A stretch of 38,727 nt of DNA, from the IMG/VR virus record IMGVR_UViG_3300032334_000570, positions 1-38,727 of that record, one strand, 5' to 3'. The position numbers were made by a program, and so were the translations under genes. Positions 21,962 to 32,686 of this stretch are shown here, in pieces (positions within the stretch are counted from its first letter, which is position 1; each line of letters begins with the position of its first letter). This DNA is from a virus. The notes beneath the pieces are model-generated. The model was given only the letters and a program-made list of their open reading frames with translations. It was not told the origin of the DNA and made no database searches.

Positions 21962-21976
21962 TTCATACCGTATGAA
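21962..21976 (+). repeat. 15-bp motif TTCATACCGTATGAA, copy 1
   Basis: Exact copy: 7-bp inverted arms around a central C. It is followed within 5 bases by TGTCAAG, as at copy 5 (22997). It lies 132 bases before the first rightward start codon. Confidence 0.9.
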
Positions 21977-22029
21977 AAACTGTCAAGCTGTGCCGATTCC
22001 TAGCTATGTCGTGCAAACACTCCACAATA

Positions 22030-22038
22030 TGTTATAGT
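22030..22038 (+). promoter_or_regulatory. Extended -10 promoter for the isolated rightward gene
   Basis: TGTTATAGT matches the TGnTATAAT extended -10 consensus; no good -35 lies 17 bases upstream. Transcription would start near 22045 and leave a ~65-base leader before the SD GAAAGGA. Confidence 0.5.
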
Positions 22039-22108
22039 TAAGTCACTGGTTAGGAATTGCATTGCATTCGCATAGCGCCTAAGCAGTAACGTCTTGAAAG
22101 GACAAACC

Positions 22109-22624
22109 ATGAGCAAAGCAACTATTTCCTACACTGACATGGCATCTAAAATTGCTGTTAACTTGTTGGGTGAATTAAAGCTTGATGACCAGAAAAAAGT
22201 ATTGCGTGACAATACAAACACAATGATTGTTCAAATGAACAAAGACGGTGTAAAGGTCGGTTCACGTGCAGGCAAAAATCCAAGCTCTGTTGCTTGTGCA
22301 TTCCATGACACGTTGACAGCAAATGGCATTTCATCAAAGACAGCAAGTAACTACTTGAGCACGTTCAAAGCTCATGTCGAATCAGGCAAACCAATCATTG
22401 ATTGGAATCTGCAAAGACAGAATGCAAAGAGCGGCAAAGGTGGCAAGGGTAAAGGTAAAGCGGCATTCGCTGATTTATTCTTGAAAGCTTTCAATCACGA
22501 TGAAGGCAAGTCGTTCCAATGTTTAGCTCAAGAAATTGAGGTACGTTGGGACAATGCCGAAGGTACGATTTACGAATTATTCGTAAGCTTCTTACAAAAA
22601 GAAGGTTACGAAATCAAAGAGTAA
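22109..22624 (+). CDS. First rightward gene: basic protein, candidate DNA-binding regulator
   Basis: 171 residues; the ATG at 22109 has GAAAGGA upstream, so the in-frame codons from 22094 are excluded. The N-terminus is helical (YTDMASKIAVNLLGELKLDD). GVKVGSRAGKNPSSVACAFH and TLTANGISSKTASNYLSTFK (around 78-97) look like a helix-turn-helix by spacing, and a basic GKGGKGKGK linker follows at ~115-123. The C-terminal ~45 residues are acidic. It is monocistronic, with its own promoter and terminator and motif copies on both sides, as expected for a regulator. Function is not known. Confidence 0.65.
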   Translation: MSKATISYTDMASKIAVNLLGELKLDDQKKVLRDNTNTMIVQMNKDGVKVGSRAGKNPSSVACAFHDTLTANGISSKTASNYLSTFKAHVESGKPIIDWNLQRQNAKSGKGGKGKGKAAFADLFLKAFNHDEGKSFQCLAQEIEVRWDNAEGTIYELFVSFLQKEGYEIKE

Positions 22625-22625
22625 A

Positions 22626-22640
22626 TTCATACCGTATGAA
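22626..22640 (+). repeat. 15-bp motif TTCATACCGTATGAA, copy 2
   Basis: Exact copy placed between the stop codon of the isolated gene and its terminator hairpin. Confidence 0.9.
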
Positions 22641-22643
22641 TTT

Positions 22644-22670
22644 AGCCCCGCTTCGGCGGGGCTTTTTTTT
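22644..22670 (+). terminator. Strong intrinsic terminator of the isolated gene
   Basis: AGCCCCGC-TTCG-GCGGGGCT forms an eight-pair stem with a UUCG loop, running into eight Ts. It ends the 22109-22624 transcript and insulates the following noncoding region. Confidence 0.95.
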
Positions 22671-30700: not shown

Positions 30701-30900
30701 TCGACCGACTCATTCTCAGTGCTGTGCTAGGTACAGTAGGGTTCAACGGTTTATTCCCTGACCCACCATCGCCACTGACACTGAAACAAAAGGCAGTGTA
30801 CAAATCTGTAAGTGCAGTGTGTGAGCGCAAAGGTAAGAAGAAACAAAGCAAGACAGTACAACAACTGTGTGCTAAATGGAGGGAACAACAGAATGCTTGA
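30697..30900 (+). CDS. 67-residue basic protein, function unknown
   Basis: ATG at 30697 (ATGA overlap) after AAGGAGAAG. A hydrophobic N-terminus (MIDRLILSAVLGTVGF) is followed by a Pro-rich stretch and a basic helix (ERKGKKKQSKTVQQLCAKWR). No domain is recognised. Confidence 0.6.
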   Translation: MIDRLILSAVLGTVGFNGLFPDPPSPLTLKQKAVYKSVSAVCERKGKKKQSKTVQQLCAKWREQQNA

Positions 30901-31060
30901 AGCGATAAGAACATTCTTTGGCAAGATACGTGGTGTACATGGTGAACGCAGGACAGTTGTGCAAGAAGGTCTTGTATGGCGATGCACCAAGTGCTATTTA
31001 ATTTTCACAACAAAGTCAGCAGGAGATCAGCATGATTGTAAAGACAATTACGGAAAATGA
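30893..31060 (+). CDS. 55-residue zinc-finger-like protein
   Basis: ATG at 30893 overlaps the previous gene by 8 bases, with GGAGG upstream. MLEAIRTFFGKIRG leads into WRCTKCYLIFTTKSAGDQHD then C, a C-x2-C-x12-H-x1-C arrangement close to a C2H2/C2HC finger. Likely a small nucleic-acid-binding protein; role unknown. Confidence 0.6.
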   Translation: MLEAIRTFFGKIRGVHGERRTVVQEGLVWRCTKCYLIFTTKSAGDQHDCKDNYGK

Positions 31061-31208
31061 AGATGGGACAGCAACTATTGTTTGCGACTTCAGCGCGGCG
31101 GAAATACGAGCCTTTGTTGAATTAGGATTTTTAAAACTACTCAAAGACTATTTAGACCAAAACGCACCATTCCATGAAGGGAATATAAATGCCAAGACCG
31201 AAGAGTGA
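31032..31208 (+). CDS. 58-residue protein, function unknown
   Basis: Found by reading: ATG at 31032 with AGGAGATCAGC upstream, TGA at 31206-31208. It begins MIVKTITENEDGTATIVCDF and continues SAAEIRAFVELGFLKLLKDY, a beta-hairpin plus helix. It overlaps the preceding gene by 29 bases and the next by 20, unusually deep for this phage. Confidence 0.65.
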   Translation: MIVKTITENEDGTATIVCDFSAAEIRAFVELGFLKLLKDYLDQNAPFHEGNINAKTEE

Positions 31209-31359
31209 ACTGACGACCAACCCCAAAATCGTTGGCGCACGGTTGACACAAGAACTTTTCAGAGAGTGGAGAAAACTAGGAGGTGCAGTATGGTTACGTA
31301 AATATCTTGCAGAACAAAAACAAAGGAGGGAGTTGAATGACACCAGAAGTAAAGGTTAA
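31189..31359 (+). CDS. 56-residue small protein, ribbon-helix-helix-like
   Basis: Found by reading: ATG at 31189 with GAAGGGAATATAA upstream, TAA at 31357-31359. MPRPKSELTTNPKIVGARLT followed by ELFREWRKLGGAVWLRKYLA has the strand-then-two-helices form of short Arc-type DNA-binding proteins. The MPRPKSELT...RLT...W..LGG..WLRK pattern is common among phage proteins. Overlaps the nuclease gene by 23 bases. DNA binding is inferred. Confidence 0.6.
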   Translation: MPRPKSELTTNPKIVGARLTQELFREWRKLGGAVWLRKYLAEQKQRRELNDTRSKG

Positions 31360-31645
31360 AAGCAAGATAAAGAAGATACTCAAAGAACATAACGTGTACT
31401 ACGCTATGCCTATGGGTACAGGCTACGGCAATGCAGGTGTGCCTGACTTCTTATGTTGCGTGGACGGATATTTTGTAGCGATTGAAGCGAAAGCAGGTAA
31501 GGGTACTACGACTGCGTTACAGGATAAGAACTTGCAACAAATCAAAGACAGTGGGGGTATTGCCTTCATTGTTAACGAGAGTAGTTTGGAAGAGTTTGAA
31601 CAATCAATTAAACAAATCATTGGAGGTCAATCATGGGTATCATGA
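31337..31645 (+). CDS. VRR-NUC domain nuclease
   Basis: 102 residues; ATG at 31337, with GGAGG 8 bases upstream. GVPDFLCC (D37), FVAIEAKAGKG (E50, K52) and TALQDKNLQQIKDSGGIAFI form the PD-(D/E)xK core of the VRR-NUC family, stand-alone in many phages at about 100 residues. Probably a structure-specific nuclease in replication or recombination, consistent with polymerase and RecB-like genes downstream. Confidence 0.85.
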   Translation: MTPEVKVKSKIKKILKEHNVYYAMPMGTGYGNAGVPDFLCCVDGYFVAIEAKAGKGTTTALQDKNLQQIKDSGGIAFIVNESSLEEFEQSIKQIIGGQSWVS

Positions 31646-32235
31646 AAGAAAAACTTGAAGCGGTAATGAATGAGTGGAACAAAGAAGAGGAACAAAACAA
31701 CGAACAAGTGTCGTTGTCTACAAAGGTACTTAACTTCTTGCTGAGGCACCCAAACAGTTCAGCGGGAAACATATGCAACCACGTTTTACGTGAGTATCCC
31801 GAGACACCAAGGTCAAGCGTGTCGTCTACGTTGAAACAACTTTTTGACAGGAACTTTGTAGAACGTGAAGAGTTTTTTGACCCGACGGTACGTAGAGCAT
31901 CATTCAAATACAGGGCAGTAAGTGATGAGAGAAGATTGGAATTGGAAGCTATTCGCAAAGTCGAAGAGCAAGCCGCTGAAGAACGTTTGGAGAAGATGAG
32001 AGCACAAGCAGAAGCGGCACGTGCGGCTAAAGCGGCAAAGCGGGAAGAGCGTTTGAAAGCGCAAGATCATGAGGGTACTGGGGTAAGTGCGGGGTTGAGT
32101 GCGGCACTGTCAGCACAAGTTGAAGTACCCAAGGAAATACCCAAGCGCAACAGTACGCAGGAGATATTGGACAGCTTGAACATCACACAGGCACGTGCGT
32201 TGTACGATGAACTTAAAAAGATATTCGGAGGTTGA
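31633..32235 (+). CDS. Winged-helix protein with coiled-coil tail
   Basis: 200 residues; ATG at 31633 (also ATG at 31642), upstream TTGGAGG. Residues ~27-85 (LSTKVLNFLLRHPNSSAGNI, SSVSSTLKQLFDRNFVERE, ASFKYRAVS) read as a MarR-like winged helix-turn-helix with a wing. A long charged helix (EAIRKVEEQAAEERLEKMRA) and a C-terminal helix (ILDSLNITQARALYDELKKI) follow. Could regulate transcription or act at the replication fork; overlaps the nuclease gene by 13 bases. Confidence 0.65.
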   Translation: MGIMKEKLEAVMNEWNKEEEQNNEQVSLSTKVLNFLLRHPNSSAGNICNHVLREYPETPRSSVSSTLKQLFDRNFVEREEFFDPTVRRASFKYRAVSDERRLELEAIRKVEEQAAEERLEKMRAQAEAARAAKAAKREERLKAQDHEGTGVSAGLSAALSAQVEVPKEIPKRNSTQEILDSLNITQARALYDELKKIFGG

Positions 32236-32236
32236 C

Positions 32237-32686
32237 ATGGCAGTAAAACCACCGAAAAAAGATTTGGGGGCACAACTTAGTCAACGGTTAAAGCAAGCGT
32301 ATGAAGAAGAGTACAACAAGATGTGGAGTGAGTATGACGCTAACACCGATTCATACCGTATGAATGTATCAACAGGGTATGGGGCGGCATTACCAACAGG
32401 GGGAGAAAGAGTTACGAGAGATGGTATCGAGAGTTGGCACGCACGAGGGACTGAACATTACTTGGCACAACAACTTGAAGCAAGACTTCAAAAGATGGAT
32501 GCGGCACACAAGCGTGATATGACAAACCTTGCCAATCAATTAATCAGCATGAACAATGCAATCGAAGCAAGGGTGGCGCACATCAATGGCTTTTACACAT
32601 GGCTGATTGAAACGTACCCTGAGACTGTGGCACAGTACAAGGCTTTGCTTGATTTGAAACGATTAACAGATGGGGAGGAAGAATGA
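32237..32686 (+). CDS. 149-residue protein carrying the 15-bp motif in frame
   Basis: ATG at 32237 with GGAGGTTGAC upstream, one base after the previous stop. An N-terminal charged helix (LGAQLSQRLKQAYEEEYNKM) is followed by D-SYRM-N, translated from a motif copy. Then come VTRDGIESWHARGTEHYLAQ and a long helix (LEARLQKMDAAHKRDMTNLA). No family is recognised; the helical layout suggests oligomerisation. Confidence 0.6.
   Translation: MAVKPPKKDLGAQLSQRLKQAYEEEYNKMWSEYDANTDSYRMNVSTGYGAALPTGGERVTRDGIESWHARGTEHYLAQQLEARLQKMDAAHKRDMTNLANQLISMNNAIEARVAHINGFYTWLIETYPETVAQYKALLDLKRLTDGEEE
32350..32364 (+). repeat. 15-bp motif TTCATACCGTATGAA, copy 12 (in gene, outlier)
   Basis: Exact copy 5 kb from the nearest other copy, inside a gene and in the same reading frame as copy 8. 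It is the last copy I found in the window. Confidence 0.9.

Follow-up and report, generated by a model that had tools for sequence, protein, structure and literature searches.

The stretch analysed here (hereafter the window), positions 1 to 38,727 of IMG/VR record IMGVR_UViG_3300032334_000570 from a virus of aquatic bacteria, carries in its early-gene region a perfect 7+1+7 palindrome of 15 bp, present in 11 exact copies (TTCATACCGTATGAA) that all lie on the plus strand. Our analysis indicates that this 15-mer is likely to be the operator of an early dimeric regulator that acts just after transcription initiation and between genes. The candidate regulator is the 171-amino-acid product of the gene at 22109-22624 (plus strand), the first rightward gene, which adjoins the palindromes; judged by its sequence, it is a protein family not previously described. 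The parts of this reading differ in strength: direct binding of the palindromes by this product appears very likely and a transcriptional role for the regulator-palindrome system quite likely, and it is an even call whether the mode of action would be an elongation roadblock or some other.

Palindrome copies and arm dialects

An earlier note on this DNA had listed the 11 exact copies and a 12th place, a 16-bp variant (TTCATACCAGTATGAA; 22971-22986, plus strand) with a centre longer by one base and of doubtful function; all were located as given. A scan of both strands of the window with up to three mismatches gave 24 strand-hits against 0.9 expected by chance, with a single additional place (26470, two mismatches) and nothing left of 21962, in agreement with the note's claim that the leftward virion half is free of copies. 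The note had also placed most copies in gaps, and nine of the 11 exact copies are indeed intergenic, where 3.3 would be expected under an ad hoc gene call; across the larger records, the corresponding figures are 130 of 153 sites and 48 expected. Site 1 (21962-21976) lies upstream of the candidate promoter of the regulator gene, a placement shared by nearly all relatives, and site 2 (22626-22640) lies 1 nt past the regulator stop codon and ahead of its terminator, as in several relatives. Site 3 (22903-22917) is within a non-coding, repeat-bearing region and is followed by site 4 (22997-23011), while sites 5 (23477-23491) and 8 (25004-25018) start at about +38 and +34 relative to the predicted start points of the promoters PE1 and PE2, respectively. 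Site 6 (23868-23882) is on the loop side of a peripheral hairpin in an untranslated RNA, site 9 (25946-25960) occupies a gap between two genes, and site 10 (27352-27366) the gap separating the ATPase and VWA genes; site 7 (24293-24307) falls within a small open reading frame, and site 11 (32350-32364) also within a reading frame.

The exact 15-mer was found in 101 IMG/VR stretches, mostly as single matches, with 2-11 copies in about two dozen contigs. The earlier note had proposed counting the 15-mer in related phages, and the palindrome family proved to be conserved there. Across 16 related records including the window, read along the regulator gene, the centre base is C in 89 sites, G in 24, T in 21 and A in 20; the central C is therefore a bias rather than a rule. 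The fixed central C described earlier thus stands for the window, where all copies are on the plus strand, but not for the relatives, and the idea of orientation as a functional feature was not borne out, given these other centre bases. Several multi-copy contigs carry the 15-mer in both orientations.

The arms occur in three dialects, TTCATAC-N-GTATGAA (A), TTCGTAC-N-GTACGAA (G) and TTCCTAC-N-GTAGGAA (C), the third of which came from a directed scan; the multi-copy contigs that carry it also encode regulator relatives. A scan for TTCTTAC-N-GTAAGAA gave no multi-copy contig among the matches listed. No mixing of dialects within one locus was found, and copies with one mismatch are nearly absent except in the divergent record G019 (locus L523), which has a looser site, aacTTMATAC-N-GTATKAA, in eight places. 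All eight copies of this looser site, read in one direction, have AAC as their left flank, which hints at an orientation in that record. Site flanks are symmetric, with T/A favoured at position 1, R/Y at position 3 and a tendency to complementarity at positions 1, 2 and 4; with its flanks, the operator consensus is the ~21-bp palindrome RNT-TTCRTAC-N-GTAYGAA-ANY. As a control, 192 other viral loci of at least 5 kb contained no 7+1+7 family of three or more copies. A host regulon was considered and rejected: one 17-bp form of the site gave 28 single matches in unrelated phyla across 257 Gb of prokaryotic genomes, near the chance level.

The candidate regulator and its coupling to the sites

A protein-similarity search with the regulator retrieved 30 loci, and the palindrome family was present at the gene in all 30, typically with 5-16 copies nearby where the contig was long enough. 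Regulator relatives were present in 17 of the 23 multi-copy records, window included; in most of the others the sites are near the end of the contig, and the gene may lie beyond it. Two weak matches to L087 (L653 and L654) were rejected as unrelated proteins, and a profile built from divergent members was too variable for searching. These counts over genomes are not independent, since the relatives share ancestry.

The dialect of the sites changes together with the protein. Five changes of the A/G label were placed on the maximum-likelihood regulator tree, of which well-supported branches force at least three, and all four C-dialect proteins fall in one clade. In an alignment of 39 sequences, residue 81 (window numbering) is T in 13 of 13 G-dialect proteins and N or V in A-dialect proteins, separating the two completely, and on a tree built without column 81 this residue changes as often as the dialect. 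It agrees with the dialect in three of three supported independent pairs, which are too few for a significant sign test. Only two of 156 regulator columns (residues 66 and 81) separate the dialects, both in the helix pair 60-71/76-92, compared with two in about 4,500 columns of 15 other conserved proteins from 12 records. From these sequence associations, we infer that residue 81 helps to read base 4 of each arm. Among the products that the earlier note had put forward as binders, that of 22109-22624 emerged as the best candidate, as its relatives co-occur with the sites and its residue 81 tracks the dialect; the products of 31633-32235 and 38103-38294 are conserved in 12 and 14 of 17 records, respectively, yet neither has a dialect-tracking column.

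Over their shared length, the DNA of the window and that of record G011 show mostly about 90% identity, with a break at 22105-22584 that coincides closely with the regulator gene; their regulators are only 35% identical, one of the N81 and the other of the V81 type, and both are of the A dialect. Most of their sites are in matching places, with some single-site gain or loss. In several more pairs with near-identical flanks the regulators are 44-58% identical, and the dialect is the same whenever flank identity is at least 85%; at about 80%, the dialect of the entire site set can differ. The regulator has been exchanged as a cassette between otherwise ~90% identical phages, in the manner of immunity repressors.

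The structure model of the regulator is all-helical, with a helix-turn-helix (HTH)-like pair at 60-71/76-92, a K/G-rich linker at about 104-118 and a helical C-terminal domain. Its mean predicted local distance difference test (pLDDT) score is 85.5, and the helix-pair stretch holding residues 66 and 81 exceeds 90. Pfam and PHROG gave no notable match to the family, sequence comparison with PDB chains gave none up to E = 1, and no relatives were found in GTDB genomes, cultured phages or plasmids. Fold searches with two models gave no meaningful match, the best Z of 4.2 not being meaningful for helical models.

Site placement and proposed mode of action

Gene and promoter calls were simple, and the contigs are metagenomic, several of them fragments. 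Where the records are larger, the first sites appear some 150 bp ahead of the regulator and the last about 10 kb past it, apart from a single outlier at the distant contig end of G034. These genomes have few near-consensus promoters, defined as those with 11 or 12 of the 12 TTGACA/TATAAT positions matched. In the early region, 28 are directed away from the regulator, and for 26 of them a site begins +21 to +39 from the predicted start point, whereas this holds for none of the 16 located elsewhere, and a random early position has a site at such an offset 2.9% of the time; two of the 26 come from G019, with looser sites at +35 and +37. In the window, these promoters are PE1 (23404-23432, plus strand; TTGACA-N17-TATAAT, 12/12) and PE2 (24935-24963, plus strand; TTGACA-N17-TAGAAT, 11/12), each with a site downstream, consistent with the earlier statement that some copies lie behind promoters.

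An open-complex polymerase occupies DNA as far as about +20, so that initiation should proceed unhindered with sites at +21 to +39, and a block just after initiation is the economical reading of their position. The dyad symmetry with its free centre, the HTH-like pair and the position of the tracking residue on the second helix of that pair all point to a protein dimer reading duplex DNA. The regulator would bind as a symmetric dimer on the ~21-bp palindrome, with residue 81, in the second helix of the pair, helping to read base 4 of each arm. Polymerase would then be stopped shortly after leaving the two consensus sigma-70 promoters, and further stops would occur at the sites between genes. 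The outcome would be early shut-off or timing in an apparently lytic phage. A lytic cycle with early shut-off is the likeliest context, because no tyrosine integrase was detected in 17 records (some possibly fragments; serine integrases and partition genes were not searched for) and, by terminase, the closest named phages are phages of roughly 60 kb from lakes, the sea or cyanobacteria.

Several observations weigh against an operator that acts as a roadblock. The regulator could be matched to a known DNA-binding family neither by sequence nor by fold, and its co-occurrence with the sites is weak evidence by itself because early modules are shared by descent. The placement of site 1, ahead of the candidate promoter of the regulator gene itself, is not explained by roadblocking, and the near-absence of one-mismatch copies is stricter than in usual operators. 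Furthermore, lambda CI and Cro are poor roadblocks (PMC10310618), so that polymerase may pass a dimer bound to a short palindrome. Both binding and blocking are inferred from sequence.

It is unlikely that the palindromes act instead as RNA, each forming a hairpin in the nascent transcript, as in lambda boxB or HK022 put, with the regulator as an N-like antiterminator. This would be consistent with a length of 15 nt, equal to that of lambda boxB, with sites soon after promoters, with the flank complementarity noted above and the ability of the site to lengthen an RNA hairpin, and with the rrn-type boxA that follows the PE1 site in many genomes. In the window, this boxA (23498-23509, plus strand; GTTCTTTAACAA, one mismatch to GCTCTTTAACAA) accompanies an untranslated structured RNA of about 600 nt, the predicted PE1 transcript (23440-24056, plus strand, ends approximate). 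Related untranslated stretches occur in six relatives, most with one rrn-type boxA shortly after the start, and an alignment of the RNA from seven phages has 76 predicted pairs, 28 of them with at least one kept double change. The untranslated RNA had no Rfam match at E up to 1, and no known RNA, tRNA or tmRNA was found in the window or in the untranslated region. However, there is at most one boxA-type element per early region, beside about one in ten sites, and in the genomes where PE1 runs directly into genes (G015, G028, G031 and G039) there is no boxA beside it. The palindromes inside the untranslated RNA occupy peripheral, variable hairpins. Site 1 precedes the candidate regulator promoter, and the innermost C-G pair, present in every site, cannot form across a one-base loop, arguing further against an RNA element.

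A role in genome organisation or replication, in which a protein resembling ParB, MatP or an initiator and anchored at the sites would condense or partition the early region, is improbable. Such a role would accommodate the extreme invariance of the sites, their number in one region and the position of three of them near the repeat-rich, AT-rich, origin-like stretch 22640-23400. It does not predict their intergenic preference or the tight +21 to +39 spacing at nearly all near-consensus early promoters and at none elsewhere, and the regulator has no ParB- or initiator-type match; ParB identity was rejected, as the window protein has no Pfam match and its relatives no ParB match.

The odds are similarly long for a positive regulator that loads at the sites and aids elongation, like a DNA-loaded Q-type antiterminator. 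Sites just past start points and between genes, including one ahead of the regulator's own terminator, would suit such a protein, but near-consensus promoters require no activator, and there is no sign of activation here. Q sites, unlike these, are located at the start point or ahead of it. A mobile palindromic repeat spreading for its own sake could explain single-site gain and loss between relatives as close as the window and G011, but is very improbable in view of the almost complete lack of decayed copies, the genome-wide replacement of dialects and the narrow range of promoter offsets.

Other elements adjoin the regulator gene and its sites. The candidate regulator promoter (22004-22038, plus strand) reads CTATGTCGTGCAA-N16-TATAGT, and an upstream alignment of 40 loci gave CTATCCCGTGCAA-N16/17-yAyAAT in the relatives; this conserved -35 region CTATCCCGTGCAA is unusual and unlike the PE1/PE2 consensus, and the promoter may need an activator. 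The gene ends in an intrinsic terminator, a hairpin plus T run (22644-22670, plus strand). A leftward promoter over site 1 was rejected, as the adjoining TTGACA has no -10 element at usable spacing. Just left of site 1 is a G-tract, TGGGGGGTGGGGGT (21942-21955), conserved in most relatives and reading GGGGGGGTCGGGGT in the C dialect, which is possibly part of a packaging or termination signal. The non-coding stretch 22640-23400 contains three 33-nt repeats (22704, 22821 and 22929), an AT-rich segment and a 53-nt imperfect inverted repeat (23034-23086/23317-23369), and is a possible replication origin.

Significance and comparison with known systems

A family without database annotation now has a named binding site, a candidate protein to bind it and a candidate residue for specificity, which opens the claim to direct test. 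Around ten sites per genome have switched along with one recognition residue, and have done so several times, providing a natural experiment in how the specificity of a regulator and of its entire regulon changes. Taken as a whole, the more far-reaching interpretation, a new family of DNA-binding phage regulators with a readable specificity code that acts only post-initiation in apparently lytic phages and may decide the early expression of co-infecting relatives, is tentative and rather doubtful; the last element follows from the exchange of the gene in the manner of an immunity cassette.

L5-type stoperators are 13-bp asymmetric, monomer-bound and oriented sites, with 20-30 across the genome of temperate phages (PMC9283540, PMC6550527). 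Their repressor combines an HTH with a stoperator domain and, once bound, halts elongation. The earlier note had named them as the closest analogy, and this holds as a working analogy: cluster A mycobacteriophages (L5, TipsytheTRex) likewise combine one phage-encoded regulator with many near-identical sites, of which some lie at promoters and the majority in short gaps between genes, and site variants there follow the repressor lineage much as the dialects here parallel the regulator. Membership of that class does not hold. The sites here are perfect dyads with a free centre, without fixed orientation and biased only towards a central C, and, numbering 9-16 and apart from the G034 outlier, they are confined to about 10 kb of the early region beside the regulator instead of being spread genome-wide. 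No tyrosine integrase was found in the 17 records, some of which may be fragments, and the regulator has no detectable homology to any PDB protein chain. The comparison suggests a separate origin, in apparently lytic phages, of the scattered-operator control familiar from temperate mycobacteriophages.

With lambda Cro and CI the system shares dyad-symmetric operators, a small phage regulator and an HTH-like pair, but here the sites start past the promoter, recur between genes and are read by a putative regulator of no recognisable homology. The operators of classical dimeric phage repressors are likewise dyads, yet they overlap the -35 and -10 elements, which sites starting at +21 to +39 do not. 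The likeness to lambda nut/N and rrn boxA lies in the boxA that adjoins the PE1 site in genomes with the untranslated RNA behind PE1; here, however, boxA accompanies the RNA and not the palindromes, and since site 1 is upstream of the conserved candidate regulator promoter, the palindrome is not always a transcribed element.

The Planktothrix phage Pag-Yong1 (OL906435; L528, 20000-65014), which has a related terminase type, was found in this analysis to carry about 21 copies of another 15-bp odd palindrome, GGTTCAG-N-CTGAACC, and a pair of these copies brackets its first early gene (UMO76074.1). Among the IMG/VR matches listed, no contig held several copies of this palindrome, and no paper on the Pag-Yong1 repeats was found in the literature searched. 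Its site differs from ours, copies also occur in virion genes, and UMO76074.1 has no homology to the regulator (hhalign probability 0.1%). A similar layout with an unrelated palindrome and protein therefore suggests that this arrangement arose more than once.

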